From Verrucomicrobiales bacterium (GTDB lineage: Bacteria; Verrucomicrobiota; Verrucomicrobiia; Limisphaerales; UBA9464): a DNA stretch of 45,793 bases. The stretch lies in NCBI GenBank assembly GCA_005805505.1, contig SYMJ01000040.1, positions 1 through 45,793 of the forward strand, in the 5' to 3' direction. Of this stretch, positions 1,089 through 37,470 are shown piece by piece (position 1 is the stretch's first letter; each line of letters begins with the position of its first letter). The notes beneath the pieces are model-generated. The model ran no database searches, was not told the origin of the DNA, and was given only the letters and a program-made list of their open reading frames with translations. The position numbers were made by a program, and so were the translations under genes.

Positions 1089-3878
1089 TTAGTGGTTGAA
1101 GGCGAACTCCTTCGTGTTGAGCAGGGCCCAAAATAAATCGGGCAGCACTTCCTCCGGAGGGGTCTCGGTGAACTGCTTCAGTACCCGTTCTAACTCCACG
1201 GCATTGGGGCGTCGTCCGACGGTGATGAGGTAGAGTTCTTCGACCAGTCGCGGCCCGTCGGTGGGGGTCTTGGCCGAGGAGATCAACTCCTTGAGCCGAC
1301 CTTCCGGGTGCTGGATCTTCTTGTTCAATTCCTCGCCGTTTTGGAGGTGTAGCAATTGCGGCAAGGTCACCTCGCCGCTGCGTTCGCAGGCGCAGGCCGT
1401 CACCCGCTCGCTGCGGCCGAAGAGTGTGAGAAAGTAGCTGCTGACGGTGGGTTCGGGCACTTGCACGGCACGCATTCCCACCGGGAAGCCATCGAACCGA
1501 TCGGGTACGCCGGTGGCTGAGCTAATGGCATCGGCCATGACCTCCGCAGGCAGGCGGCGAGCGTAGTAGTGCGAGTAAAACCGGGTGTCGGTTTCGTTGC
1601 CGCGCACGGTGCGTGCGCTGAGTTGGTAGGTTCGCGAATTGAGGATGAGCCGCATCACGTGCTGCAGGTCGTAGCCGCTTCCGACAAACTCTCGGCTGAG
1701 CAAGGCCCACAGTTCCGGATTCGAAGGCGGATTGCTGGCACGAAGGTCGTCCACAGGTTCCACCAGACCGGCTCCCAAAAAGTGTTTCCAGAGACGGTTA
1801 ATCATCGCCCCGGCGAAGTAGGAGTTGTTAGTCGAGGTGAGCCAATCGGACAACTGAGCCCGTGGATCGGTGTCGGCGCTGAACTCCATCGGCTTTCGGT
1901 CGAGGGGGCGTGCCTCGAGGTCGCGCAGGGTGCGGGGTTGCCAGGCGCGGGGGACTTTGTTCCGGCTTTCGGCCAGTTCGCGTTTCTTGGCAGTGAACTC
2001 GCGTTTCCGGTCGCGGAATTCGTTTTGGGCGCCTTCGAGTTGCTTCGCCCATTCATGTCCGGTCGTGGGAGTGGCAGTTCCGCTGTCATAGCCCAATGCC
2101 AGCAACTTGGCTTCCGCTTCCTTTAGTTTCGTTTCTGCCTCCTGCAAACGTTGAGTGCGTTCGCGTTCCTCGCGACTCATGGTGAGCAAGGTGGTGGCCC
2201 CGTCGGCGGGTCCCTTTCGGTCGAGGGTCACGCGATCGAAGAAGGCGGCAAAATGGTAGAAATCGTCTTGGGTGTATTTCTCCAACGGATGGTTGTGGCA
2301 CCGGGCACAACCGATGCGCGTGCCCATGAACGCCTGCGCGACGGCATCCGGCGCTTCGCTCTCGGTGGAACGCTTTTCACCGACCAAATACACGTAGTAG
2401 CCAATTTCCGGGTGTTGGACCGAATCGCCGCTGGCTGTCAGGACATCGCGTACCAGCGCGTTCCACGGGCGATGAGCGGCCACTTGATCCCGCAGCCATC
2501 CGTGGAAGGCGCGGACATTCTTTGCACCGCGGACGTCATGATCGCGTTCCTTGCGGTTTTGGAATAAATCCGCGAGTTGGAGTGTCCAGTAATCGGCGAA
2601 CTCGGGGCGCTGGAAGAGGGAGTCGGTCAGAGTTGCCCGCTTTCCCGGTGAACGGTCGGCTTGGAATGCTCTAACTTCTTCCGGTGTGGGCAGCGTTCCG
2701 AGCGTGTCGAGCATGGCCCGACGTAAGAAAGTTGCGTCATCGCACCGGGGCGATGGGGGCAGGTTCAACGACTGCAACTTAGCGAAGACCGAGACATCCA
2801 CCGGATTCTGAGCGCGGGTGAACTTCCATCCCTCGACCACGTTGGTGAACGGAATGGTCACTCGAACGATTTCAACCAGTCCCTGGAAATGGATTCGGAT
2901 GGCGGTCTCACCGGGACGGATCGCCTGAATCCGCCCTTCCGGAGTGACGGTGGCGATATTTTGGTCATTGGAAAAAAACTGAGAAAGCCAGGTGACGTCC
3001 CGGATGCGTCCATCGGGCCAGTGGGCGCGTGTTAGTAATTGCTGGGTTTCGCCGGGTGCGAGAATGCGGCTCAACACCGAGCGTTTTGCGGTCCGCGGAT
3101 CCGATTGTGTGGGAGTCGATGGATTGGGAATCCCGGCGAGGATTTCTAATTGGTTGGCATCGGTTTCCTCATCGGCTGGCAAGGGTCCTGGTGCTCGGGC
3201 GGCGATCCATTTCGCCAACGTGTGATGGTAGCGGGAGCCCTCGGCAAAGCGCACTTTACCTTCATGCGGAACGAGGCCTAGTGGCTTGGTGATGAACAGA
3301 GACTCTTCAGGGAAGGCGGGGTTGATTCGGCGTCCGCTGACATCATTCGCGACCCAGCCGTAGTCGTGTTCTGGAGCGTAACCTCGCAGCGACAATTTGA
3401 AGCCGTTCTGTCCGGCCAGCTTGCCATGGCATGAACCCATGTTGCAGCCCGAGCGGGTGAGCAGTGGTTCAATCTCCTGTCGGAACGACGGTGAGATTGG
3501 GTGGGCGGCGTCTTGCACCCCCACGGCGACACGGTGGGTTTGTCCCCCGAAACGGACCAGAACCTGGGCCGTGCCATCACCCACGGCGTGAACTAGGCCG
3601 TTGGAGGTGACTGTCAGGATTCGCTCATCCGTGCTGCTGAAGTGCGCCTCCAGTGTGACGTCTCGAAAGAGGTTGGTGAGCCCCGTGGGAGAATGGGTGG
3701 GTGCTGAGACTAGAACTCCGTGCACGTCATCCGATCCCCGCAAATTTATTCGAGTGGGTTGAACCCACAGCCGAGCGCCAACGGTGTCGTTGGTCAGTAC
3801 CAACCCGGTCACCGCAAACACAGCCATTCGAGCGCATGAGCGCCAGAATGCTCGCAGGGCCGGGCGGGGGGTGAACAT
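1089..3878 (-). CDS. DUF1549/DUF1553 domain-containing protein with Big_2-like Ig domains and a CxxxCH-like cytochrome segment
   Basis: 929 aa ORF with SGCNMGSCHGKLAGQNGFKLSLRGY, GTRIGCARCHNHPLEKYTQDDFYHFAAFF and INRLWKHFLGAGLVEPVDDLRASNPPSNPELW motifs. Paired with the downstream DUF1501 gene. Confidence 0.92.
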   Translation of the reverse strand: MFTPRPALRAFWRSCARMAVFAVTGLVLTNDTVGARLWVQPTRINLRGSDDVHGVLVSAPTHSPTGLTNLFRDVTLEAHFSSTDERILTVTSNGLVHAVGDGTAQVLVRFGGQTHRVAVGVQDAAHPISPSFRQEIEPLLTRSGCNMGSCHGKLAGQNGFKLSLRGYAPEHDYGWVANDVSGRRINPAFPEESLFITKPLGLVPHEGKVRFAEGSRYHHTLAKWIAARAPGPLPADEETDANQLEILAGIPNPSTPTQSDPRTAKRSVLSRILAPGETQQLLTRAHWPDGRIRDVTWLSQFFSNDQNIATVTPEGRIQAIRPGETAIRIHFQGLVEIVRVTIPFTNVVEGWKFTRAQNPVDVSVFAKLQSLNLPPSPRCDDATFLRRAMLDTLGTLPTPEEVRAFQADRSPGKRATLTDSLFQRPEFADYWTLQLADLFQNRKERDHDVRGAKNVRAFHGWLRDQVAAHRPWNALVRDVLTASGDSVQHPEIGYYVYLVGEKRSTESEAPDAVAQAFMGTRIGCARCHNHPLEKYTQDDFYHFAAFFDRVTLDRKGPADGATTLLTMSREERERTQRLQEAETKLKEAEAKLLALGYDSGTATPTTGHEWAKQLEGAQNEFRDRKREFTAKKRELAESRNKVPRAWQPRTLRDLEARPLDRKPMEFSADTDPRAQLSDWLTSTNNSYFAGAMINRLWKHFLGAGLVEPVDDLRASNPPSNPELWALLSREFVGSGYDLQHVMRLILNSRTYQLSARTVRGNETDTRFYSHYYARRLPAEVMADAISSATGVPDRFDGFPVGMRAVQVPEPTVSSYFLTLFGRSERVTACACERSGEVTLPQLLHLQNGEELNKKIQHPEGRLKELISSAKTPTDGPRLVEELYLITVGRRPNAVELERVLKQFTETPPEEVLPDLFWALLNTKEFAFNH

Positions 3879-4097
3879 CCGAGGTAGTATGTTCCTCTGT
3901 GAATCCCATCTCCAACTTGTTTTTCGCCGCAGTGGCTCTTTTTCGGGGTTTTCGGAAAGGCAGTGAGTTGAGTGCCAAGGCCGAGTGTGGGCTACCGGCT
4001 AGACTATCTTCGCCTCACCATCGCTCGCAATTCGGATTGGCCGGAGGCGATATCCGATGGGAGCGGCAAACACAGGTGAACCACCCGTGAGCGCCCG

Positions 4098-5789
4098 TCA
4101 ACGCGTGGGATTTGTTGATAACCGATCTTCCAAACTGCGCTGTTTGAGGCTCTGGCGATGGGTTCTCGAGCGGTGGATCATCCAGAGGCTAATGAGAGGC
4201 CAGACGATCCATCCGAATCGGGCCGCGCCCTGAATCGGGCGTACGGCCATGGTCTCGGAATCGGCGAGGGACAACAGGGCGACGGGGGCCGACGCGGGCA
4301 ACGAGAACGGCGAGATGCCTGCGATCCAAATCCCCACGTGCAAGTAGTCGTTGTCGATGCTGGCGATGATCGCTCCGGCCATGAGCGGCAGTACGCCGAT
4401 GAAGAGCAGGCCTATGCCAACGGCTCGGCCCCCTTGGGCATCCAACAGGGCCTGCAGCGATCCGGTCACCGCGAAAAGGATCAGGCAGTGGATGATCAGG
4501 ATGTGAAGCCCTGCGTGATGGCCCGGAAACCAGCGCGATTCGAGCAGGGCATGGGTGAAGAGGTACCAACCGATGCCGCCGCAGAGTGAAATGATCACAG
4601 TGCAGAGGGTGGCCGAATCGGTGTCACCGAAGGCGGGAAGACGATCCTCGCCGTTCTTGAAGGCGCGCCGCCAACCACGGATTTGCCGCTCACGGTCTGG
4701 CGTGACGATGCCAGTAAGCACACAGGCTAGGCCGGTGGTGAACAGGCCGTACACCGCGATCATGGCGAGCGCCTCCTTATTGTCGGGCTTCCAGTCGAGG
4801 GCTTGACTCGTGAACCAACGAAAGCTTCGGGATGGAAATAAATCTCCGGGATCAATGAGCGGCAGTGCATGCCCGAGCAGCACCACTTGCACCGCAACAA
4901 AGGTGGCCACCGCCCAAAATTGGCTAAGCAAATGGGCTTCTTCCTGCCGCCACTTGCGGCAGAGCATCATCACGAACAGGCCGATCAGCCCGGCTTGGGA
5001 AAGCGTGGTGAAGACCACCTCGGGCAGGCCCAGATTGAAGAACCGAGGCGTTGGAAAGAAATTCTGACCGATGCGCAGCGCTGCGCCGGCCTTCTCGGGA
5101 AGGAGTTCGGGCAGGCTCTCGTAGAAGACCGGAGTGACGGTGAGGTACTTGAAGAAAACGAGACCGAATTTGGCCAACTGGGGAATGACGGTGTAGAGCG
5201 AGAAAACCATTCCGATGGAAATGAGGAAGGCCCAACGGCGGTTTCGGACGACGGTGCCGGTCAGGAGTCCGGTGGCGTGGTAAGTGACCGCGGTGGTGAA
5301 AAGAATCCAGTACAGCGGAGCCCAAGCCGAAGCGGGAACATGCCCCCGAGCCATGGCCCAGGCGGTGAACGGGAGGATGGAGGCGGCCAAGAGGTATTCG
5401 CGCAAGGGCAGGCCGAAGAGGTATCCTAATACCTTGGTCAGTGGGGCCATGGGGACGAGCCGTTGGTAGTCGACGCTCCCTTCGTCCCGTTCGGTGATCA
5501 TGCCGCCGGAGACTTGGGCGGTGCCCATGACAAACAAGATGAAGGCTTGCAGGACTAGCAGCGGGATGATGGCCGAGCGGGCGGCGCTGACCGGATCGGA
5601 CTCGCTGCGAATACCCAGTGAGTAGGAAATGCCGACGATGAACGCGGACAGCACCAGCGTGATGCAAAGCCCCAGACCCAAATCGCGGGATCGAAGCCGA
5701 GAGCGCACGTAGCGTCGCAGCACGGGATTCTCCCAGAGCCGCCAAGCGGAGACCTCGTTTTGGTCGGAGTCCGTCGTAGGGGCGTTCAT
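4098..5789 (-). CDS. ABC transporter permease (ABC-2 type)
   Basis: 563 aa multi-TM protein. ATGA overlap with the upstream ABC ATPase gene (5786-5789). Confidence 0.8.
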   Translation of the reverse strand: MNAPTTDSDQNEVSAWRLWENPVLRRYVRSRLRSRDLGLGLCITLVLSAFIVGISYSLGIRSESDPVSAARSAIIPLLVLQAFILFVMGTAQVSGGMITERDEGSVDYQRLVPMAPLTKVLGYLFGLPLREYLLAASILPFTAWAMARGHVPASAWAPLYWILFTTAVTYHATGLLTGTVVRNRRWAFLISIGMVFSLYTVIPQLAKFGLVFFKYLTVTPVFYESLPELLPEKAGAALRIGQNFFPTPRFFNLGLPEVVFTTLSQAGLIGLFVMMLCRKWRQEEAHLLSQFWAVATFVAVQVVLLGHALPLIDPGDLFPSRSFRWFTSQALDWKPDNKEALAMIAVYGLFTTGLACVLTGIVTPDRERQIRGWRRAFKNGEDRLPAFGDTDSATLCTVIISLCGGIGWYLFTHALLESRWFPGHHAGLHILIIHCLILFAVTGSLQALLDAQGGRAVGIGLLFIGVLPLMAGAIIASIDNDYLHVGIWIAGISPFSLPASAPVALLSLADSETMAVRPIQGAARFGWIVWPLISLWMIHRSRTHRQSLKQRSLEDRLSTNPTR

Positions 5790-6796
5790 GGCAGGAGAGG
5801 CGGGGTAGCAATGTCGACGAGGAGTTCCTCCAGTGAGGAACGTTTCTCTTCGAAGGTCCTCAGGCGTACCCGGCGCCGAACTAATGTTTCCAACAGCTCC
5901 GCCTGGGCTTCGTCGTCTCCGGTGAACTCGAAGGAGATCCGCGCGGATTCGACGCGCAGTTCACTAATTGTGGGCTGTTGGGTGAGCCAATCGGCGGCTT
6001 CGGACGGCGGCGAGAGCAGGCCGAGGGTCAGCCGGCGGCGTGTGTTGCCGAGTTGGGACCGTACTTCATTCACGCTCCCGTGGGCCAAAAGTCGGCCCCG
6101 GTTGAGGACGCACAGGGAGGTGCACATCTCGCTCAACTCGCTGAGGATGTGAGAGCTGATGAGGATGGTTGCACCGGTGGCGGCGAGGCTTTGCAGAGCG
6201 GTGCGGAGATCCCGGCGGGCCAGCGGATCGAGCCCGCTGGCCGGCTCGTCGAGAATGAGCACGCGGGGTTCATGCAGGAGGGTCTTGGCCAAGACCACAC
6301 GCTGGGTCTGACCTCTCGACAATTCACGGCAACCGTTGTTTCGCAGGTTGGACAAGCCCACGGTTTCTAGGCATCGGTCGGTGCGTTGGCGCCGCTGGTG
6401 TGCGTCGCGCAGCCCGTAGGCGGCGGCGTAGAAGTCGAGGAACTCCCACACCTTGAGATCGCTGGGGACCGGAGCCAGATCGGGCATGTAGCCCATCAAC
6501 CGGCGGGCTTGGCGGGGGTTTTCGGCGATGTCGATACCGTCGAAGAAGACATCGCCATGGGTGGGTTCCATGAGCGTGGCCAGCACCCGGAAGGTGCTCG
6601 TTTTCCCCGCGCCATTGGGTCCCACGATGCCGAGGATTTCACCGGGCGGTACCGCCAAAGTTAGGTCGTTGACGGCGACGAAATCTCGATAATCGACTCG
6701 CAGAGATCGGATGTCGACGGCGACACGACTTTCTCGCGCGAGGCCCCCGGCTGGGCTGCCCAGCGGTGTTGGGTTAGGGGCCGAATTCAAATTCAT
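5786..6796 (-). CDS. ABC transporter ATP-binding protein
   Basis: Walker A GPNGAGKTSTF, signature LSRGQTQRV, Walker B VLILDEPASGLDPLARRD. Confidence 0.95.
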   Translation of the reverse strand: MNLNSAPNPTPLGSPAGGLARESRVAVDIRSLRVDYRDFVAVNDLTLAVPPGEILGIVGPNGAGKTSTFRVLATLMEPTHGDVFFDGIDIAENPRQARRLMGYMPDLAPVPSDLKVWEFLDFYAAAYGLRDAHQRRQRTDRCLETVGLSNLRNNGCRELSRGQTQRVVLAKTLLHEPRVLILDEPASGLDPLARRDLRTALQSLAATGATILISSHILSELSEMCTSLCVLNRGRLLAHGSVNEVRSQLGNTRRRLTLGLLSPPSEAADWLTQQPTISELRVESARISFEFTGDDEAQAELLETLVRRRVRLRTFEEKRSSLEELLVDIATPPLLP

Positions 6797-7733
6797 CCCA
6801 GTCAGCAGGCAGTTCCACGCCCAACTTGTTCATCTCTTGCGAGGCTTCAATGAGTCGTCGTTCGCGAGCCGCCTCGTATTTAGCCAGTTGATCCGGCCGC
6901 AGCACCGACCGGAGGGCGTCGCGCGGATGGAGGTTGGCGGGTGCGATCTCACCGGTCGCCCCCTCGAGCCGGATGGACGCGTCATAATCCGGAGACGACT
7001 GGGCCATGATGCCGAAGAGTTGATCTGTTTGCGCAGGGTCGAGTTGAACGAGGTTGTTAATTCGTTGCACTTGCATGTCGGCGTACTGCTGGACTCGCTG
7101 AGACCTTTCTTCCAGACGCTCGGCTTTGAAGGCTTCCAGTTGAGGGCCCGTGAGCAGGGCTTCCATCACCGGGTCCAGTCCTTCATCGGTGCGGTCATTG
7201 CGCATCGACTTCACAAGCTGCAAGTAGGTGGTGTCGTCGCTGGAAATGAGATCGTTCCATTTTTTTCGATCCGCCCGGGATTTTTCGGAGAACCACTTCT
7301 GAAGGGATTCTTGTTGGTTGGGGTTTAGGTCGTACTTGCGGGCCAGTTCTCCGATGAGGCTGTCGGCTTGCTGTTTGGACTTTTGATCCGCGATGCGCTC
7401 GAACAGCGGTGCCATGTCGCGGAGCAGGGGTTGGGCGGCGCGGAAAAGATCGTCGGAACTAACCGTGCGCCCCTCGCGCAGACGCTGGGCGATATCACGG
7501 CCCCGATCATAGGCGGTTTGCGCAGGCGTGCGCGACGAACGAGGTCGGGTTTCTTCGAGGGCCGCGATGCGGGTGCGTGCCTGCTGCAACTCGGTCTCCA
7601 AGTGCTGGATTTGTGCCTCTGGAGTCCCGGCCATCCCAGGTGTGCTGTGTTGGAACAGGCCGACACCTAGCCCGCCCACGGCCAGCCCGATCACCAAAGG
7701 CACCATCGCGCGGAGACCTTGCGTTGGAATCAT
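6774..7733 (-). CDS. Hypothetical membrane-anchored coiled-coil protein
   Basis: The ORF track extends to 7796. An internal ATG at 7733 (MIPTQGLRAMVPLVIGLAVGGLGVGLF) avoids overlap with the ThuA gene. N-terminal TM, then coiled coil EAQIQHLETELQQARTRIAALEE. Confidence 0.6.
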   Translation of the reverse strand: MIPTQGLRAMVPLVIGLAVGGLGVGLFQHSTPGMAGTPEAQIQHLETELQQARTRIAALEETRPRSSRTPAQTAYDRGRDIAQRLREGRTVSSDDLFRAAQPLLRDMAPLFERIADQKSKQQADSLIGELARKYDLNPNQQESLQKWFSEKSRADRKKWNDLISSDDTTYLQLVKSMRNDRTDEGLDPVMEALLTGPQLEAFKAERLEERSQRVQQYADMQVQRINNLVQLDPAQTDQLFGIMAQSSPDYDASIRLEGATGEIAPANLHPRDALRSVLRPDQLAKYEAARERRLIEASQEMNKLGVELPADWDEFEFGP

Positions 7734-7773
7734 AGAGAGAGGTAAGTCGGCACGAATCCAGCGCAAGAAATTC

Positions 7774-8652
7774 TCACTCCCGGCTGTGGACATCACTGGC
7801 CGTGGGGAAATCGGTCGGGATGGGCAGGGTGACCCGGCCGGTGGCCGCCCATTCGGTGCCGCGCAGGAGGGTGGTGATAAAACCTACGCACTTTTGGGAG
7901 GTGAGGTCGGGGCCGTTGTTGTGGCCGAGGGCCGTGTGGAACACCCGACCTTGACCGAAGGCGATGGTGAAGAGGAGGGGCTCGTGCTTGCCGGTCCCGT
8001 GCGTCTTGGGGTCCGAAAAGGCCGTGGCCAAGACGGTGAGGTTCTTGGCCGGTCCGCGCAGGCGATCGTAGAGTTCATCCTTGGCGTGCATCCATTGCGG
8101 CGGGAGTCCCTCCATGATGGGGTGCTTCGGTTCGCGGGTGGTCATTTGGAAGGCGTGCTGGCTGCCATGGCTGCCGCCCGGCCCCGGCGAGGTGTCGCGC
8201 ACGATCTTGCCTTCCCAATAAAGCCACGGTCCGGATTGTTCGTTGCGCCCTTCCCAACCGCCGACGCCGATCATTTCGTTGTACTCGGGCCATTTTGCGA
8301 AGGCGTTGTTGGCGGCATGAACTGAAACGAAGCCGCCCCCATTGCGAACGAAGGCGACTAGGTTCGTTCGCAGTTCCTCGGGCCAGAGGTCGCCGTTGTA
8401 GTTGGAGAGCACCACTGCCACGCCGTCGAGCTTGGGTTTCACCGCGGCCATGTCACCGCCCTTGCTGGGCAGGGTGACAACCTCCACCGCGAAGCGTCCG
8501 GAAGCCTCGAGAACCTTCTTCAGGTGCGGCGTGGAGGATCGCCAGTCGTGGTTATTTTGGCCGTCGATGAGAAGAACGCGAAGTCGGCCGGAATCCGCGG
8601 CGAATACGGACATCGTCAACCACGCAGCAAGCAGCAGAACACGCTGGATCAT
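7774..8652 (-). CDS. ThuA domain-containing protein
   Basis: Signal peptide, then LRVLLIDGQNNHDWRSSTPHLKKVLEASGRFAVEVVTLPS...GGGFVSVHAANNAF...GSHGSQHAFQMTTREPKHPIMEGLP. Confidence 0.9.
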   Translation of the reverse strand: MIQRVLLLAAWLTMSVFAADSGRLRVLLIDGQNNHDWRSSTPHLKKVLEASGRFAVEVVTLPSKGGDMAAVKPKLDGVAVVLSNYNGDLWPEELRTNLVAFVRNGGGFVSVHAANNAFAKWPEYNEMIGVGGWEGRNEQSGPWLYWEGKIVRDTSPGPGGSHGSQHAFQMTTREPKHPIMEGLPPQWMHAKDELYDRLRGPAKNLTVLATAFSDPKTHGTGKHEPLLFTIAFGQGRVFHTALGHNNGPDLTSQKCVGFITTLLRGTEWAATGRVTLPIPTDFPTASDVHSRE

Positions 8653-8835
8653 GGCCGGACGTTGGCGTTGGGAAGAGACCCTGACCAGTCATAAAAGACT
8701 GGGCCCGGCGAGCGACCTTGGAACGGGTGGATGCGTGGTCTCGCCCGGGCGGTAAGCGTTTGGGTGCGGGAGTTTTTTTCGGTGCGTTTTTCGATGGATG
8801 AGGAATTGTGAACCCTTCCAGAATCCCTGTTTCCC

Positions 8836-10134
8836 ATGAGCTCCCTCACCCCATTGTCTCCTTCTCGCCAAGGAATCGCAGGCCTGATGCGTCGGACCCG
8901 TTTAGCGGCTCTGGTGTTGGCTTCTTGCGTCCCGATGTTCGCGGTTCAGGCCCATGATTGGCCCGAGTTCCGCGGCCCAACTGGGCAGGGAATCTCTCCG
9001 GCCAAACAAGTTCCCATCCGCTGGAGCGGGAATAGCAATGTGGTCTGGAAGACCCCGTTGGCGATGGCCGGGTGGTCGTCTCCGGTTTTGGTAAAGCAAC
9101 GCCTCTACCTGACGGGTTCTGGTGCTAAGCCTGGCTCGAGCAGTTTGGAATTGGCGGTGCTGTGTCTCGACGCGCGGTCGGGTGCAATTCTCTGGAGCAC
9201 CAACGTCTTCACGCCGGACAATGGAGCAAATCTCCATCGCAAGAATGGTTATGCCAGTCCGACACCCGTGGTGCGCGACGGTCGGCTTTACGCCCATTTC
9301 GGACATTTGGGAACGGCCTGTCTCGATCTAAAGGGACAGGTGATTTGGCGTCAGACGTCGGTCCAATACCCGCCGGTCCACGGCAACGGCGGGTCGCCCG
9401 TTTTGGCGGGAGACCATTTGATCTTTAGTTGCGATGGGGCTTCGGATCCGTTCGTGATCGCGCTGGATTGTAAGACGGGTGCGGTGCGGTGGAAGACCCG
9501 GCGGCCGAATGATGCGTTGGCCAAGAAGTTTTCGTTCAGCACGCCCTTGCTCATCACTCATGCCGGCCGTCAGGAACTCATTAGTCCGGGTGCTGGTGGC
9601 ATCTATGCATACGATCCGCTCAGCGGTCGACCGCTGTGGCAGGTGGGCACGGGCACCGGCTTCTCGGTGGTGCCCCGACCGGTCTTCGCGCATGGGTTGC
9701 TCTACGTGAATATCGACTACGATTTTCCTAAGCTCTATGCGATCCGCCCCGGCGGTGAGGGGGATGTCACTGCGACCCACTTGGCTTGGCAAATCGGTCG
9801 TGGGGCCCCCAGCACCCCCTCGGCCTTGGTCGTGGGAGACGAGCTCTACTTCGTCTCCGATGCCGGTATTGCGACGTGTGCCGATGCGCAGAGCGGCAAG
9901 GTGCATTGGAATGAACGGCTCGGTGGTGGATTTTCGGCTTCGCCGGTGTTCGCCGATGGCCGGATTTATTTCCAGAACGAGGAAGGCGTCGGCTTCGTGG
10001 TTCAGGCAGGCAAAACCTTCGAACTACTGGCCCGCAACGAATTGGGTGAGCGCACGCTGGCCAGCAGTGCTGTCGATGATGGAACTCTCTATTTGCGGGG
10101 AGCCGAGCATCTCTATCGCATTGGCAAGAAGTGA
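8836..10134 (+). CDS. PQQ-binding-like beta-propeller repeat protein (BamB-like)
   Basis: HDWPEFRGPTGQGISPAKQVPIRWSGNSNVVWKTPLAMAGWSSPVL and repeated LDxKTGAVRWKT-type blades. The start may be the downstream Met (MRRTRLAALVLASC). Confidence 0.9.
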   Translation: MSSLTPLSPSRQGIAGLMRRTRLAALVLASCVPMFAVQAHDWPEFRGPTGQGISPAKQVPIRWSGNSNVVWKTPLAMAGWSSPVLVKQRLYLTGSGAKPGSSSLELAVLCLDARSGAILWSTNVFTPDNGANLHRKNGYASPTPVVRDGRLYAHFGHLGTACLDLKGQVIWRQTSVQYPPVHGNGGSPVLAGDHLIFSCDGASDPFVIALDCKTGAVRWKTRRPNDALAKKFSFSTPLLITHAGRQELISPGAGGIYAYDPLSGRPLWQVGTGTGFSVVPRPVFAHGLLYVNIDYDFPKLYAIRPGGEGDVTATHLAWQIGRGAPSTPSALVVGDELYFVSDAGIATCADAQSGKVHWNERLGGGFSASPVFADGRIYFQNEEGVGFVVQAGKTFELLARNELGERTLASSAVDDGTLYLRGAEHLYRIGKK

Positions 10135-10301
10135 GGCGGTGACGGCCCAGAGGTTTTTTTCGGGGGGGAGCAGGGTTTGATCGCCGGCTCTCCATGGTCC
10201 GAGCGTGGCAACCCGACCGCTGCCTTGCTCCGGACCCCCGGTGCGTGGTTCTGTTCGGACTCCGGTGAGGCACGCAGTTTTCGTGAGGTCACCGGGCTGC
10301 C

Positions 10302-11495
10302 ATGCCTGTGCCCTTTGCCGTTCCCACGGCCCGTCTCACCTGTTCGCGTTGTCGACGCCCGGCCTCCGCCTGCTGGTGCGCCGAGTTGACACCGGTCGAA
10401 ACGGCGACGCGGGTGGTGTTCTTGCAGCATCCCCGTGAGTCCCGGGTGGCCATCGGGACGGCCCGCATTGCGCACTTGGGTTTATCCCGCAGTGAACTCC
10501 ATGAGGGGATTGAATTTGCCGGTCACCCACGCATCGAGGAATTGCTGGCCCGACCCGGGACGGCCTTGCTGTTTCCCGGTCCCGGAGCTGTGGCGCCCGA
10601 CGCTCTCGAACGACCGCCCGAGACGTTGATCATCATCGACGGCACGTGGCCCCAGGCGCGCAAGATGGTGGCGCTCAATCCGGCGCTGCGGGCCTTGCCG
10701 CGCATCGGATTCATGCCGCGCAAGCCGGGCAATTACCGCATCCGCCGAGAACCTGACCTTCATTGTGTCGCCACCGTGGAGGCGGTGGTCGAAGTGCTCA
10801 GCGCCTGGGAGGGAGATGAGCAGCGGTTTTATCCGTTGCTCAGTGCTTTCGACGCGATGGTAGATCGTCAAATTGCCGCCACCGCCGCGCGCACGGCCCC
10901 CCCTCGACGTCGGTTAAAAAGAGCGGATCCGTGGTGGGAAAGCCCGGCCATGCCCAACCTCATGGCTTTGTGGCCCAGCCTCGTGGTGGTGGCTGGCGAA
11001 GCCAATGCTCATCGGCGGGACAGCCCCGTGGCTGGATCTCCCGAACTCCTCCAATTCGTGGCGATGCGGCCGGCAACGGGGGAAGTGTTCGAAGTGTTTT
11101 TGACTCCGCGCCGACCGTTGGCGGCTCGGGCTCACCAACACTTGGAAGTGCTCCAGGAGATGATTTTGGGCGGCCGAACCGTCGCGGAGGCGACCTCTGC
11201 TTGGAACGGTTTCCTCAAGCAGGGGGACCATTTGGTGGGTTGGGGTGATTTTGCGGTCCAACTTTGGGCGCAGGAATCGTGGCATCCCGAGTGCGAGCCC
11301 ATCGATTTGCGTATCGTGGCGGCCCATCGTCTCAAGCGCCGTCCGGGAACCGCCGCATTGGCTGCTCAATCGATTGGAGCCAACGTCGAAGGCCCGGCGG
11401 TGGCCAGCGGTCGGGCCGGTGCGGCAGTGCGGGTCATGTCGGCCTTCATTCGGCGACTGCTGGAAGAGCAGCGGGCGGGCTCAGGGCAAGCGTAA
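10302..11495 (+). CDS. DTW domain-containing protein (tRNA-uridine aminocarboxypropyltransferase-like) with a ~170 aa C-terminal extension
   Basis: TCSRCRRPASACWC Cys motif, LQHPRESRVAIGTARI, IIIDGTWPQARKM (DTW-type motif), FMPRKPGNYRIRREPDLHCVATVEAV. Confidence 0.85.
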   Translation: MPVPFAVPTARLTCSRCRRPASACWCAELTPVETATRVVFLQHPRESRVAIGTARIAHLGLSRSELHEGIEFAGHPRIEELLARPGTALLFPGPGAVAPDALERPPETLIIIDGTWPQARKMVALNPALRALPRIGFMPRKPGNYRIRREPDLHCVATVEAVVEVLSAWEGDEQRFYPLLSAFDAMVDRQIAATAARTAPPRRRLKRADPWWESPAMPNLMALWPSLVVVAGEANAHRRDSPVAGSPELLQFVAMRPATGEVFEVFLTPRRPLAARAHQHLEVLQEMILGGRTVAEATSAWNGFLKQGDHLVGWGDFAVQLWAQESWHPECEPIDLRIVAAHRLKRRPGTAALAAQSIGANVEGPAVASGRAGAAVRVMSAFIRRLLEEQRAGSGQA

Positions 11496-11504
11496 CCACC
11501 CGGA

Positions 11505-11651
11505 GGGTTGCTGATCGATCAGTGCCTCCATGATGTGGAGGCAACTCAATCCAAAGCGGTTCAATTCCCGAGCGGCATGGCTGAAGGTTGCCGCAGGATC
11601 GCTGTCACTCCTGTCGCCAAAGGCACCGGTCGGCGAGAGTCGGACTCCGAC
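11505..11651 (-). pseudogene. Remnant of an old-yellow-enzyme/NemA-like alkene reductase
   Basis: The minus-strand ORF 11481..11741 contains VGVRLSPTGAFGDRSDSDPAATFSHAARELNRFGLSCLHIMEALIDQQP. This resembles the VG(V/I)R(L/I)SP-G-F...(Y)LH(V/I)-E region of OYE-family reductases, with no flanking barrel. Confidence 0.55.
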
Positions 11652-11716
11652 GCATTCCGGTTGCCAAGCCCAGCGATGCAATCTTTCCGCGGGGAGGGTC
11701 TTGGCGAAGGGGAGGG

Positions 11717-12442
11717 TTACTGTCCGGGTTGATAGAACCAATCCACCTTGCTGTTAGCACCCTTGGAGAGGGTCTTCCAGGGCATGACGGCGGTGTGTCC
11801 GTCTGCCCACGCATAATTGCCGCCCTGACCGTGACGGACGTAGCGGAACAAGGCGACCCCCAGGCTGGGTGGGTACAAGTACCCGTAGTGCCACCACTCC
11901 AGACCCTTAGAGGGATCGAGGCCGTCGCCGTTCATCACGGTGTCCGAAGGCTTGGTGATGAGGGAGGTTTTTACTCGGTCCGCCGGGGTGTATCCGAGGT
12001 AGGCATAGTTGTGCCCATACCCACCGTAGCCCTGATATCCGGGAACATTGGCCGGGATGACGTTGGTGCCGATCTTGGCCGTGGGGCAGGCCACCACCTT
12101 GTCCTTGGCGACGAGGTTGGTGAAGTTGCGGTTGTCGGTGGCGATGTACGTGGAGATTTCAGCGAACCATCGACTCGGGGCCACCCACCCGGATCCGACC
12201 GGAGCCTCGGTGCCCGCGACCGGCAGAAAGTCGGTTTGGTCGCCCGCATACAGCAAGTAGCCCAAGACAATTTGCTTCTCGTTGCTCGTGCAGCGAATTG
12301 TTTGAGCCTTGGCCTTGGCTCGTGCCAGAGCCGGTAGAAGCATTCCTGCCAAGATGGCGATGATGGCGATGACGACGAGCAATTCGATCAGCGTGAAGGC
12401 ATGGCGGAACAGCACGGCCCTCGATGATGGAAAAGGTCTCAT
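11717..12442 (-). CDS. Prepilin-type N-terminal cleavage/methylation domain pseudopilin
   Basis: [46 protein letters not shown] and C-terminal [19 protein letters not shown]. Confidence 0.93.
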
Positions 12443-12532
12443 GGATCTTTGACATGTCAGCCCGCCCGGCAGGGTCTGTCAAAGTGTGTCTTCGGCGTTG
12501 GCCGGGCTGGTTGAGCAAACTCAGTCGCGATC

Positions 12533-13219
12533 TCAGTCCCGCATGAAGTGGCAGGTGTAGCCGCCGGGGTTTTTGACGAGGTACTTTTGATGGTAGCCCT
12601 CGGCAGAATACCAGATGGAGGCGGTGGCGATCTCGGTGACCACGGGGCGGCGCCACTTGCCGGAGGCGTTGACCCGGGCCTTGACCGTCTCGGCCGTCGT
12701 TTTCTGAGTTTCGTTGAAGGTGAAGATGGCCGAGCGGTACTGGCTGCCCGCGTCATTGCCCTGGCGGTTGAGCGAGGTGGGGTCGTGCATGCGGAAGAAC
12801 CACTTCTCGAGCAACTCTTCGAGCGACAAGGTCTTGGGATCGAAGACGACTTTGACCGACTCGGCATGGCCCGACTTGCTATCGTGGGTGTCGTCGTACT
12901 TCGGGTTGGGCAGCCATCCGCCGGTGTATCCCGACTGAGTTTCGCGAACGCCGGGAATCTTGCGCAAGATCTCCTCCATGCCCCAAAAGCAACCGCCGGC
13001 CAGGTAGATGGTTTCCAGCCCTGGAGCGGGCTGTGGTGCCGGGGGCACGGCGGGTAGCGCCGCCGCGAGGTTGGTCGATGCGTTGATCGAGGTGGGTTGG
13101 GTCATGGGAGCCTTTTTCGGAGACGAGGTTTTCTGGGGAGCGTCCGCAGCGGCGACGGTGGTCTGGAACAGAACCAGCGAGGCGACCAAAAGGGACACGG
13201 TGGCAATCCAACGGCGCAT
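12533..13219 (-). CDS. msrA: Peptide-methionine (S)-S-oxide reductase MsrA with N-terminal signal
   Basis: IYLAGGCFWGMEEILRKIPGVRETQSGYTGG...FFRMHDPTSLNRQGNDAGSQYRSAIF...EGYHQKYLVKNPGGYTCH. Confidence 0.95.
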   Translation of the reverse strand: MRRWIATVSLLVASLVLFQTTVAAADAPQKTSSPKKAPMTQPTSINASTNLAAALPAVPPAPQPAPGLETIYLAGGCFWGMEEILRKIPGVRETQSGYTGGWLPNPKYDDTHDSKSGHAESVKVVFDPKTLSLEELLEKWFFRMHDPTSLNRQGNDAGSQYRSAIFTFNETQKTTAETVKARVNASGKWRRPVVTEIATASIWYSAEGYHQKYLVKNPGGYTCHFMRD

Positions 13220-31449: not shown

Positions 31450-31690
31450 AAAAAGGGGTCAAAAACGGGCTCAGGGAAGTATTTCCGAATTTGATTCACC
31501 CCTTTTTTGTAAGCGGGACCTTGATCAACGCCTACTCTGACTCAATGAACTGGTAGTTTCTCCGGTGCCTGATGGGTAGTGAGGTTGCCTCAGAGGCTTG
31601 CCAAACGCCGAGCCTGATCCGCTCATCGATGAGGGAGGAGAGATTTAGGTGACCGCCCAACGGGGAGTTGAAACGTTCGAAAATCGGGGA
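31450..31690. repeat. Repeat family copy A (R1 block 31463-31500, R3 block ~31616-31690), with 10-bp arms AAAAAGGGGT/ACCCCTTTTT at 31450-31507
   Basis: aaacgggctcagggaagtatttccgaatttgattcacc and ccgctcatcgatgagggaggagagatttaggtgaccgcccaacgggga, both recurring near 34.7-34.97 kb. Confidence 0.8.
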
Positions 31691-31738
31691 AATGAGGCTG
31701 CGTTTAGGTGGCCTCAACAACGATCGTTGGAAGAAAAC

Positions 31739-31775
31739 TTGACATTTGTGGCAACATGTACAGGTTATTGTCCAT
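31739..31775 (+). promoter_or_regulatory. Putative phd-yoeB promoter/operator
   Basis: TTGACA at 31739-31744, TGTACA (YefM core hexamer in E. coli) at 31757-31762, AT-rich GGTTAT/GTTATT near 31763-31769, ATG at 31776. Confidence 0.5.
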
Positions 31776-32036
31776 ATGAAAGCGATCACCTATACCGCTG
31801 CACGGGAAAGCCTTGCGTCAACGATGGATCGTGTTTGCTTGGATCATGATCCAGTGATCATCACGCGTAATCGCGATCAAGCCGTTGTGATGATATCGCT
31901 TGAGGATTATGAATCGCTTGAGGAGACTGCTTATCTTCTTCGTTCGCCTGCAAACGCCCGTCGCCTTCTTGATTCAATTTCGGATTTAAAGGGAAGCGGT
32001 GGTATTACGAAATCCATCGACGAACTCATGAAATGA
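31776..32036 (+). CDS. Phd/YefM-family antitoxin
   Basis: MKAITYTAARESLASTMDRVCLDHDPVIITRNRDQAVVMISLEDYESLEETAYLLRSPANARRLLDSI. Start set at ATG 31776, after TTGACA/TGTACA upstream. Confidence 0.93.
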   Translation: MKAITYTAARESLASTMDRVCLDHDPVIITRNRDQAVVMISLEDYESLEETAYLLRSPANARRLLDSISDLKGSGGITKSIDELMK

Positions 32037-32290
32037 ATATTCAGTTTTCAACTCGTGGATTTGAAGATTACGTATATTGGCAGACTTTTGATGAGAGGAT
32101 TCTTAAAAAGGTTAATGATTTACTGAGGGATATTTCTCGCAATCCCTACGAAGGCATCGGTAAGCCTGAACCATTAAAGCATGTCTTAAGTGGATTTTGG
32201 TCTCGTCGAATTACGGACGAACATCGGTTGGTTTACAGAGTTGAAGGTGATGTCATTAAGGTTGCGCAAGTTCGCTACCATTATGAATAA
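32033..32290 (+). CDS. yoeB: Txe/YoeB-family mRNA interferase toxin
   Basis: ATGA overlap with antitoxin. FEDYVYWQTFDERILKKVNDLLRDISRNPYEGIGKPEPLKHVLSGFWSRRITDEHRLVYRVEGDVIKVAQVRYHYE. Confidence 0.95.
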   Translation: MNIQFSTRGFEDYVYWQTFDERILKKVNDLLRDISRNPYEGIGKPEPLKHVLSGFWSRRITDEHRLVYRVEGDVIKVAQVRYHYE

Positions 32291-32352
32291 AATCGCTGAT
32301 CCGGGCTCAGCGCTACAGCGAATAAATCGAATTGTCACGGACCGCGCTCCGC

Positions 32353-32473
32353 AAACGGGGTCAGAAAACGATTTCTGATTTTCGATACACCAGTTCCCTT
32401 TGCCCAGAACTCGGAAAAGGGCCCCGCAACCTGAACGGGCTCTTGCCTAGGCATTGGGCGAAAGTTGCTGACA
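32353..32473. repeat. Repeat family copy B (R1+R2 blocks)
   Basis: aaacggggtcagaaaacgatttctgattttcgatacaccagttccctttgcccagaactcggaaaagggccccgcaacctgaacgggctcttgcctaggcattgggcg closely matches 34734-34855. Confidence 0.85.
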
Positions 32474-32566
32474 TCCGCACGCGCTTGCAGTCGGTGCGGT
32501 CGAAGAGCGGGAGCTTCGCCCAAGTGGGATTGGGTTCGAGATCGGCGATTGATGGGAGAAATGCGG

Positions 32567-33499
32567 TCATGCTTTGGCGATTTTCTCCAGCGGCTCTATG
32601 GCGTCTTGCAGCAAACGTTTCCCGGTGACTTCCAGGAGCTTCAAGGAGGGTGCTTGCGAGACAAGCAGTCCGTATTCGCAGGTGTGGCGTGCCTCGTTCA
32701 AGTCCGCTTCGTTTTCGGGCTGGACGAGCTGGCGAAGGCCGTTTCCGACCTTCGGAATGAGGTCTCGCCAGATGGTAGGGAAGCGACTTTGCAGCGCCGC
32801 CGCCCAAATTTGCGACCATTCGAGTAGTGAGTCCTCCTGCCGGGCTTCGGCAAGGTAAGCGAGTGCGAGGACGCGCCCGAGGTCTTTGTTGCTGCGTTTG
32901 ATGCGGCGTCCGCCAATGAGACCGCTCATGGGTTCTTCGCCGATCGCGGGATGATGGAGCAGATTGGCAAGGGCCATGGTTTCGGGTCGGGCGATGGCGA
33001 TGCCGAAAGGTGTGTGGATGGGCTCAAACTCTGCGAGTGACAGAAAGCCAAAGCTGCACAGGCTGAAATGGCCACGGGAGGTCACGATTCGGATGTCTTT
33101 CCGGCCAAGGTCTGACTCCGATTCCGGGACGGTCAGCAGTTCGATAATCCATTCCGTGGAGCCCGGAGGATGAAGGCGGACGACGGGCAGCTTATTGTCG
33201 GGTGTGGTGGCATCACCCGGATTGCCCCAGTCGCCTTCAGCGCGCAGTTCCCATTGATCGTCAAACAAACGGTTGGCAACGGCTTCTCCCGCCGGGATGG
33301 CCTTGATGCGCGGGGCGAGGAGGCAATTTACGTCTTTCGTGCGGACCTGGAGTTTCGGGTTGTCGCCAAAGAAGTAATAACCCGCCGCGAGACTGCCGAT
33401 GACGATGATGTTTTCCCGGAAATCAGCCGGGATTGCAGTGGCGATGCGCTCCAGCACGGTGCTGGGCGAAATGAGCTTCACAATGCCTTCCTGATTCAT
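32567..33499 (-). CDS. Nucleotidyltransferase-like protein
   Basis: IIVIGSLAAGYYFFGDNPKLQVRTKDVNCLLAP resembles the GS-x(n)-DxD core of MNT/AbiEii-type nucleotidyltransferases. ATGA overlap with the upstream winged-helix gene. Confidence 0.6.
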   Translation of the reverse strand: MNQEGIVKLISPSTVLERIATAIPADFRENIIVIGSLAAGYYFFGDNPKLQVRTKDVNCLLAPRIKAIPAGEAVANRLFDDQWELRAEGDWGNPGDATTPDNKLPVVRLHPPGSTEWIIELLTVPESESDLGRKDIRIVTSRGHFSLCSFGFLSLAEFEPIHTPFGIAIARPETMALANLLHHPAIGEEPMSGLIGGRRIKRSNKDLGRVLALAYLAEARQEDSLLEWSQIWAAALQSRFPTIWRDLIPKVGNGLRQLVQPENEADLNEARHTCEYGLLVSQAPSLKLLEVTGKRLLQDAIEPLEKIAKA

Positions 33500-34566
33500 A
33501 GCGGGCGGCCTTTGGTTGCGGGAAAGGATTTAAGGAACTCGAGCGCCTGCGATTCGAGGCGGGCCTCGTGCAGATCGAGCAGGCATTCCAAAGGGTCTGC
33601 CCAAGGGAGATTGTTCTCAGCAGGTTGGAAAAGGGACTGTGCGCGGCGGATGGTGTGAATCACGAGTGTCGGCGATTCGTCCCGGCGTGTCGCTTTTTCC
33701 AGGGCTGGGTCGAGCTTTTCCACGAACGAGAGGTCTGCGGCTTTGCGTGCGGAATGAATGGAAAGGTTGAGGCGCGGATTGCCGATGAGGTCGAGCGAAG
33801 GCTGGTAGTATTTTGCTCCCCAGACTCCGCCGACCGCCAGGTCTTGCCGCCCGAGTGAACGCAACCGGCGCAGCAGCGACTCCGGCGAGCGAGCCTGACC
33901 TGAGCGATCCACAAAGCGAACCGTGGCCCGGACATCATCGGACACCGCGACCAATCGCGCCCATTCATCGCGAGGGAAGATCCGCAGCTCGACACTGCGA
34001 TCCGAATGGCGCTTCAAGCAATGTTCGAGACGTTCCAGCGAGCGCGAAACCGTGGGGTGACTAGCGCCGGAGATTTCCAGGAGCGAACCAATCGAGAGCG
34101 GGCCCCGTCCGAGCAACCACTGATGGATGAGAATTCGCAGAATTTCGTAGTGCGCTTCTGAACTCCTGCTTGCCCCGGTTGGGCGTTGCGAAAGTTCATG
34201 CTGAAGAATTTCTTCGAGGACTGGTACCTCGCTGGACACAGGCGATCGTGGGATGCCACTCCATTTTCCAGACCGACGAACCACTGCGGATAAATGATTG
34301 AAAATTTCTGGCCGGAGCACTGAGGCCGCGCCCTGCCATTCGTCCCGCAAGCGCGAGTCGGTAATGCCGGGCTCTTCCAGCACGAGAACGGCATGCCGTA
34401 GTTCCTTGGACGATGAGACGACTCGCGCCAGATCCATCAAGGTAGTGCGCAGCCGGCGCGCATCCTTCGTCTCGATCAGCACCTCGTAAGCCGTGTCGCC
34501 CATGACAGCGTCAGCCCGAAAACCAGGGAAGTTCTCAATGGAGCACTCGTAGCGAAGCGTTTTCAT
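33496..34566 (-). CDS. Winged-helix regulator, possibly an AbiEi-like antitoxin, partner of the nucleotidyltransferase
   Basis: HTH segment LSIGSLLEISGASHPTVSRSLERLEHCL, then SPESLLRRLRSLGRQDLAVGGVWGAKYYQPSLDLIGNPRLNLSIH. Confidence 0.55.
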   Translation of the reverse strand: MKTLRYECSIENFPGFRADAVMGDTAYEVLIETKDARRLRTTLMDLARVVSSSKELRHAVLVLEEPGITDSRLRDEWQGAASVLRPEIFNHLSAVVRRSGKWSGIPRSPVSSEVPVLEEILQHELSQRPTGASRSSEAHYEILRILIHQWLLGRGPLSIGSLLEISGASHPTVSRSLERLEHCLKRHSDRSVELRIFPRDEWARLVAVSDDVRATVRFVDRSGQARSPESLLRRLRSLGRQDLAVGGVWGAKYYQPSLDLIGNPRLNLSIHSARKAADLSFVEKLDPALEKATRRDESPTLVIHTIRRAQSLFQPAENNLPWADPLECLLDLHEARLESQALEFLKSFPATKGRPL

Positions 34567-34573
34567 GATTTTA

Positions 34574-34622
34574 ACTTGCGACCTTGATTATAAGGTCGCA
34601 AGTAGAATCGCAGGTCGCGAGT
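34574..34622 (-). promoter_or_regulatory. Palindromic operator overlapping a TATAAT -10 box, plus an extra half-site
   Basis: ACTTGCGACCTT-gattat-AAGGTCGCAAGT perfect 12-bp inverted repeat (34574-34603). Minus-strand TATAAT is at 34592-34587. Half-site AGGTCGCGAGT at 34612-34622. Related AAGTCGCACCTTGATTTGAAAGTCGCGCCTT around 34665-34697. Confidence 0.75.
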
Positions 34623-34730
34623 TCATTTTATTGAGCTCAGGGCGAGAGCTATAATTTTAAATTAAAGTCGCACCTTGATTTGAAAGTCGCGCCTTCAGTT
34701 AGCGGTGAGAAGTGTTTGGCGACTCCAAGA

Positions 34731-34899
34731 CGGAAACGGTGTCAGGGAACAATTTCCGATTTTGGATGCACCAGTTCCATTTGCCCGGAACTCCGAAAAA
34801 GGCCCCGCAACCTGAACGAGATCTTGCCTGGGCATTGGGCGATCGTTGCAGACACTCTCCTGAGTCAAATTCGGAAATCGTTCCCGGACCCCGTTTCCG
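34731..34899. repeat. Repeat family copy C: MITE-like element with ~34-bp imperfect TIRs, followed by R3 block to ~34975
   Basis: Left CGGAAACGGTGTCAGGGAACAATTTCCGATTTTG; right arm reverse complement CGGAAACGGGGTCCGGGAACGATTTCCGAATTTG. Confidence 0.88.
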
Positions 34900-36605: not shown

Positions 36606-36935
36606 ATGAGTAACCACCAAAATATCGACCTCAGAAGTCTCGCCATGGACCAGAGGACGGCGGAGAAGCTCTTGGCGAATCCCGCCTTGGTGGATCGCGG
36701 TTTGGCGAATCTGGATCGGTGGTTAAAGACCTGTTCCCCCGGTGTGCGCCCCGTATTGATCGAGTGGCAGACCTTGCTCCAGCGGCCGCTGCCAGAAGTC
36801 ATCTTGGTATTGCGGAGCACCGATCAGCGGGCCACCCGTCTCAGGCAATCCAGCCCGTTTGCCGGTCTCTTGTCTGTTTCCGAGCGAACCGAAATCTTGA
36901 AGCGCTTTCCGACTCGTGAACCGCAACCAGCTTGA
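36606..36935 (+). CDS. Hypothetical protein coupled to a DUF6036-like nucleotidyltransferase
   Basis: 109 aa; 20-nt overlap with the downstream ORF. Confidence 0.65.
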   Translation: MSNHQNIDLRSLAMDQRTAEKLLANPALVDRGLANLDRWLKTCSPGVRPVLIEWQTLLQRPLPEVILVLRSTDQRATRLRQSSPFAGLLSVSERTEILKRFPTREPQPA

Positions 36936-37470
36936 ACACCTCATCCGTGCCGCCGCCGGCAATGCCGATGTCCGTGAAATCGTGGTGATTGGCAGCCAGT
37001 CTATCTTGGGGGCTTTTCCCAACGCGCCGGAAGACCTGCTCGTATCGATGGAGGCAGACGTGTTCCCCAAAGATCGCCCTGAACTTTCCATCGTCATCGA
37101 GGGCTCGATTGGAGAGCGGTCGATGTTCCATGAAACCTTCGGCTACTACGCCCATGGTGTGGATGAAACTACGGCCATTTTGCCAATCGGTTGGCAGGAA
37201 CGCCTCGTGCGAGTGGAAAACGAGAACACGAGAGGCAACATCGGATGGTGCCTTGAACCCCATGACTTGGCCGTGAGCAAGCTCGTCGCTGGTAGGGAGA
37301 AAGACTTGAGCTTTGTCGCATCGTTGATCCGCCATGGAATGGTCTCGGAAACGATCTTGCGTGAGCGTTTGAGTACCATCGATTTCACGGCGAAAGACGG
37401 GAAAGCCCGTTCATTGACCCGTCTGGATCGAGTCGCGAGATCTGTTCTTGGCAAAGAATCCGGTGCGTAA
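36916..37470 (+). CDS. DUF6036-like nucleotidyltransferase family protein
   Basis: VREIVVIGSQSILGAFPNAPEDLLVSMEADVFPKDRPELSIVIEGSIGERSMFHETFGYYAHGVDETTAILPIGWQERLVRV. Confidence 0.75.
   Translation: MNRNQLEHLIRAAAGNADVREIVVIGSQSILGAFPNAPEDLLVSMEADVFPKDRPELSIVIEGSIGERSMFHETFGYYAHGVDETTAILPIGWQERLVRVENENTRGNIGWCLEPHDLAVSKLVAGREKDLSFVASLIRHGMVSETILRERLSTIDFTAKDGKARSLTRLDRVARSVLGKESGA

Follow-up and report, generated by a model that had tools for sequence, protein, structure and literature searches.

A spaced array of conserved half-sites upstream of a winged-helix gene in Verrucomicrobiota: a probable autoregulatory operator

What is the role of a perfect palindrome, accompanied by further copies of its half-site, just upstream of a two-gene operon in a Verrucomicrobiales bacterium? 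The locus lies in a contig stretch of 45,793 nt, analysed as a whole and called the window here. A sequence-only reading of this DNA had described a 12-bp inverted repeat with a minus-strand TATAAT at its centre and three additional half-sites. All of these elements were confirmed. The palindrome, ACTTGCGACCTTGATTATAAGGTCGCAAGT, occupies positions 34574-34603, with 12-nt arms that are 100% complementary and a 6-nt spacer, and is the sole perfect inverted repeat in the 45.8-kb window with arms of at least 11 nt and a spacer of at most 12 nt. When the intergenic region (201 nt) was put through 2,000 dinucleotide shuffles, no palindrome with 12-nt arms arose, and a single shuffle gave arms of 11 nt. 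The TATAAT reads from 34592 to 34587, 20 nt from the ATG at 34566, and the half-sites are found at 34612-34622, 34665-34675 and 34684-34694, 5' of the gene for a 356-aa protein.

The half-sites are regularly placed. Their centres (the TTG/CGA midpoints) fall at 34578/79, 34598/99, 34617/18, 34670/71 and 34689/90, successive distances of 20, 19, 53 and 19 bp, with the first centre 12 bp upstream of the start codon. The array is built of units of ~12 bp with the consensus TAACTTG/CGACTTT (slash at the centre; unit sequence, as TAACTTGCGACTTT) and a period of 19 bp, and its last unit is inverted and set at 20 bp. This terminal unit, u3 (34574-34585, plus strand), ends 7 nt from the ATG and forms one palindrome arm; a leave-one-out motif search places the 19/20 array of three units at this position. 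The other arm is u2 (34592-34603, minus strand; ACTTGCGACCTT), and u1 (34611-34622, minus strand; ACTCGCGACCTG) follows in the same orientation, 19 bp from u2. Two upstream units on the minus strand, 34664-34675 (core GTGCGACTT) and 34683-34694 (core GCGCGACTT), make up a second pair, the nearer of them 53 bp from u1. The palindrome is the last two units, u2 and u3, standing face to face at 20 bp, and is not the basic unit of the array.

We searched the 3.6-Mb assembly for the paired site TYGCGACYT-N10-TTGCGACYT with up to two mismatches. It occurred at two sites, and both belong to this promoter: u1-u2 matches exactly, the upstream pair (34665-34692) with two mismatches. A reversed control pattern also gave two matches genome-wide, so that the evidence lies in the location of the matches and not in their number. 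As the paired site is confined to this promoter, the operator looks local, i.e. autoregulatory, within an assembly that is ~80% complete and with the proviso that single-unit targets may exist beyond the paired-site pattern.

Homologues of the 356-aa protein were identified in other Verrucomicrobiota at 98, 90, 88, 54 and about 35-42% identity, and the gene pair is rare: of 388 genomes drawn from across the phylum, 10 had any match to the regulator. Self-similarity was analysed in the 180 nt upstream of 14 members, leaving out L002, the near-identical relative (98%). A lag of 19 bp was the top-scoring lag in 12 of the 14 promoters and the second in the other two. Its summed score was 204, compared to a mean of 125 (sd 6.7) at other lags; shuffled sequences reached at most 148, and control windows drawn 100,000 times from other loci at most 151. 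Promoter sequences differ widely between subgroups, and the shared period is consequently not simply identity by descent.

The complete 19/20 geometry was present in all eight homologues of the window's subgroup (termed YPT-type), down to the ~35% protein identity of L025, which has the same arrangement as the window. A leave-one-out motif with 19/20 spacing recovered the annotated array in all eight promoters, at p<=0.0025 in seven and at 0.0175 in L026, where the fit is weak; the motif was built on hand-placed units, which makes this test not fully independent. The spacing pair (19,20) scored 238 and the next best pair 133. The centre of the last unit lies 12-16 bp before the start codon in the YPT-type members, except in L027, where the distance is 26 bp. 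L027 and L028 carry five contiguous units, spaced by 19, 19, 19 and 20 bp. The sequence-only reading had proposed a search for the same palindrome upstream of homologous operons, whose lack of it would count as a refutation; taken literally this is what we see, but not in substance. What relatives have kept are the units and their spacing, not the perfect palindrome, which is found solely in the window and in L002; seven other members pair at 7-10 of the 12 positions. The conserved feature is, on this comparison of promoter sequences, the unit and its spacing and not the perfect symmetry.

Across the 14 homologues, the form of the operator also goes with the type of recognition helix in the 356-aa protein (YPT/HPT versus YRT). 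In the eight members with a (Y/H)P(T/A) recognition helix, direct units are spaced by 19 bp and the last unit is inverted, at a distance of 20 bp. The promoters of the six members with a YRT helix have 19-bp tandem repeats with a different core (ATTGC-N9-GCAAT in the best cases), and no inverted last pair was seen in these six. A branch with support 91/91 separates the YRT group from the other members in the protein tree. The geometry of the outlying L025 suggests that the 19/20 form is the older one.

The TATAAT hexamer (34587-34592, minus strand) lies between u2 and u3 and had been called a -10 box. The hexamer is present, but its status is that of a candidate: it stands alone, a consensus scan of 34540-34760 found no sigma-70 promoter or -35 partner, and relatives' promoters do not conserve it. 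No promoter was identified in the window's subgroup. In two other relatives the signals are clearer. L024 has TTGACT-17-TATAAT and L021 has TTGAAA-17-TATAGT; in both the last repeat holds the -35 and the -10 ends 6 nt before the ATG. This distance suggests leaderless transcripts in those two genomes.

The 356-aa protein (33496-34566, minus strand) is the proposed autorepressor or antitoxin. Limits taken from the secondary structure of an AlphaFold2 model (mean pLDDT 83.8) divide it into a PD-(D/E)XK-like region (residues ~1-105), a winged-helix region (~135-200) and a C-terminal nucleotidyltransferase (NTase)-like region (~216-346). Winged-helix Pfam matches were weak (residues 151-182, E 0.01-0.02, below cut-offs). 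Foldseek matches to the model were likewise all weak, the best being Megavirus polyadenylate synthase (E 0.0027) and the others XPF nuclease (E 0.037, probability 0.80), MarR regulators, the Helicobacter pylori nucleotidyltransferase JHP933 and the AbiEi-type antitoxin Rv2827c. Many relatives have a D-x8-E-V-K motif near the N terminus that would suit a PD-(D/E)XK-type domain; the window's subgroup reads EVL.

The second gene (32567-33499, minus strand) overlaps the first by 4 nt and encodes a 310-aa NTase-like protein, the proposed effector or toxin. The regulator comes first in the operon and the putative NTase second, and the pair is adjacent in most relatives. Conservation is higher for the 310-aa protein than for the regulator (52-56% identity to distant members), and its relatives share in the family alignment a GS...RTKD-x-D motif that looks like a nucleotidyltransferase signature. 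DUF6036 lends the assignment weak support: comparison with a DUF6036 set profile aligned only this signature motif (P 0.005). Foldseek with the 310-aa model (pLDDT 70) returned no significant match, although the list was rich in NTases. Neither protein of the pair matched Pfam, NCBIfam or PADLOC above cut-off, sequence searches of the PDB gave nothing useful, and plasmid, phage and viral-contig searches with one or both proteins gave no match.

A dN/dS of about 0.1 for both genes (0.10-0.12 for the regulator) indicates purifying selection. At residue 58 the putative DxD reads RTKDVN in the window and TKD(A/V)D in relatives, including L002, L003 and L004; the DxN could mean that the second gene is inactivated, or it could stem from an error in the assembly. 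The truncated hsdS (see below) and the DxN give the window copy the look of a remnant. L002 has an intact regulator and operator, beside a second gene that breaks off after about residue 114. A copy of a dispersed repeat, described below, starts at the truncation point in L002.

We consider it probable (roughly 0.8) that the 356-aa winged-helix protein uses the sites as a multi-site operator to repress the two-gene operon to which its own gene belongs. This part of the sequence-only reading is well supported by the fixed geometry in diverged relatives, the parallel with the recognition helix and the absence of another paired site in the genome; its perfect palindrome is not the conserved feature, and its -10 assignment is unproven. 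That the 356-aa protein is the binder, and repression the outcome, is what we infer from these comparisons. In the mechanism that we propose, each ~12-bp unit (AACTTG/CGACTT) would be one recognition site, and centres 19 bp apart, slightly less than two helical turns, would make protein molecules neighbours along the DNA. The geometry suggests that binding could be cooperative. The last unit, facing the previous one at 20 bp, would close the array over the promoter and start-codon region. Once occupied, the array would block RNA polymerase, and the operon would be kept low and tuned to the amount of free 356-aa protein.

A different regulator could read the same sites: some host factor, or HsdM and HsdS as a complex to which the array is a bipartite methylation target. 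Type I enzymes recognize bipartite sites, and in many cases the operon has hsdM on one side and hsdS on the other. However, arrays are kept in L020, L021, L025 and L026, with no hsd genes seen close by, and in the window with hsd remnants only; the repeat type, moreover, goes with the recognition-helix type of the 356-aa protein. We therefore regard another binder as unlikely. It is quite unlikely, in our judgement, that the array serves activation, or a switch between activation and repression, in place of simple repression. The window promoter has no -35, and the upstream pair of units, 53 bp away, stands at about five helical turns. The obligatory units, however, cover the candidate -10 and start in the window's subgroup, or the -35 in L021 and L024, positions that are typical of repression, and the analogues AbiEi, Rv2827c and RptR all repress (PMC7319586, PMC12255303).

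Transcription from an upstream promoter would allow the palindrome to fold into a perfect 12-bp stem, and such a 5' leader hairpin could control translation or termination. We rejected this function as very unlikely, because the pairing is lost in relatives (7-10 of 12 pairs in other members) and what is conserved is unit and spacing, not perfect symmetry. Relatives do conserve the 19-bp spacing of direct unit copies, between which no base pairing is possible, and the YRT subgroup lacks the inverted last pair. The least credible explanation is that the array arose by chance or belongs to the MITE-like dispersed repeats around the operon: repeat copies do lie close by, at about 34731-34899 and 32350-32473, but the units are outside the repeat and stay with the gene family where it occurs in other bacterial families and classes.

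Autorepression through this array would be of a known kind, that of the autorepressing operators of defence and toxin-antitoxin operons. The closest parallel is AbiE (AbiEi/AbiEii; Rv2827c-Rv2826c in Mycobacterium tuberculosis), in which AbiEi and Rv2827c bind several promoter-overlapping repeats and thereby autorepress (PMC7319586). As in AbiE, the operon is bicistronic, with the winged-helix regulator first and an NTase-like protein second, although the NTase assignment is weak here. The core fold of AbiEi-type C-terminal domains is NTase-like (PMC7319586); the C-terminal domain described here belongs to a protein whose model gave weak structural matches to NTases and Rv2827c. The two differ in that AbiEi uses 23-bp inverted repeats, whereas the units here repeat in tandem at 19 bp and end with an inverted one at 20 bp. 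The regulator described here also carries an additional nuclease-like domain at its N terminus, and its winged helix is central. The Pfam AbiEi model did not match any of ten family members at E<=1, and the regulator profile was not significantly similar to an AbiEi set from the same phylum (hhalign, P=0.11). For the partner, AbiEii (DUF1814, PF08843) gave no match at E<=1 in eight members of the 310-aa family, a PF08843 search of the bacterium's own genome listed no match at the operon locus, and the 310-aa profile was not significantly similar to an AbiEii set from the same phylum (hhalign, P=0.19). We did not file the operon under AbiE, since neither gene belongs to the Pfam families and the 23-bp inverted repeats are absent. 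By analogy, it resembles an AbiE-type autorepressed pair in its mode of action, yet stands outside AbiE by sequence. We infer an AbiE-like regulator/nucleotidyltransferase pair acting in defence, with a toxin role.

RptR, the repressor of the RRDM defence island of enteropathogenic Escherichia coli, acts at three direct repeats (PMC12255303). It is a 79-aa alpha-helical protein that binds 6-bp TAGCTA palindromes in 9-bp repeats and is encoded by the first gene of the hsd island (PMC12255303). Common to both cases are the link with type I restriction-modification and, for RptR, an embedded toxin-antitoxin pair (DarTG2) (PMC12255303). Here, in contrast, the regulator is a multidomain protein with its own partner, often located between hsdM and hsdS, and its operator has a 19-bp period. 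With 356 aa versus 79 aa, another unit and a period of 19 versus 9 bp, it was not assigned to RptR. MenAT systems similarly pair an NTase-like protein with a regulator or antitoxin (PMC10435456, PMC11375011), but no sequence match to them was found, and the activity of the 310-aa protein is a prediction. The literature search found no paper on this regulator/NTase-like gene pair, and the pair is unnamed in Pfam, NCBIfam and PADLOC.

From the fixed 19/20-bp array it can be predicted, precisely and testably, which protein binds and how it is arranged on the DNA. Given that operator type parallels recognition-helix type, the 14 homologues could form a natural series in which a winged-helix repressor and its sites change jointly. 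With its recurrent placement between hsdM and hsdS, the pair would join RptR/DarTG2 as a second case in which a self-regulated cassette sits within type I restriction loci. More tentatively, and at somewhat less than even odds, we speculate that this is a phylum-wide regulator/NTase family of type I restriction-modification loci, in which a PD-(D/E)XK-winged helix-NTase-like fusion represses through the array until a phage-linked signal arrives, as a back-up suicide device coupled to restriction.

The gene pair is often found inside or beside hsd loci. The order in L004 is hsdM, regulator, NTase-like gene, hsdS; L027 has hsdM upstream and the start of hsdS downstream, L028 has hsdM upstream, and in L022 and L023 the pair lies between hsd genes. 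L024 has hsdR upstream, and a SIR2-domain gene followed by hsdS downstream. No hsd genes were seen near the pair at L020, L021, L025 and L026; the next downstream genes are HipBA-type in L026 and a large helicase in L025. The window itself retains an hsdS remnant (32442-32570, minus strand) of 42 aa, 56% identical to the HsdS N terminus of L004, and a probable hsdM remnant (34693-34724, minus strand) that adjoins the upstream units. The latter consists of about 30 bp matching the 3' end of L004 hsdM, in a blastn alignment of the window with L004 that starts inside hsdM.

Several other elements surround the operon. Just past the hsdS remnant, and convergent with the operon, lies a complete YefM/YoeB toxin-antitoxin pair (31746-32290, plus strand; Pfam E 9e-24 and 2e-37). 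The operon is flanked, at 34731-34899, 32350-32473 and 31618-31722, by copies of a dispersed repeat (~170 bp, partly palindromic, MITE/REP-like); the assembly contains 23 matches to it, of which about ten are long. A gene of the DUF6036 nucleotidyltransferase family (36606-37470, plus strand; E 1.7e-9) is located 2.4 kb from the operon; a profile comparison of its product with the 310-aa family failed to align. It is preceded by an overlapping 109-aa ORF without a family match, possibly forming another two-gene module. In L024, positions 2958-13001 are a dense defence cluster that comprises HsdR, the regulator/NTase-like pair, an HTH_3 gene, a 1,286-aa SIR2-domain ORF and HsdS.
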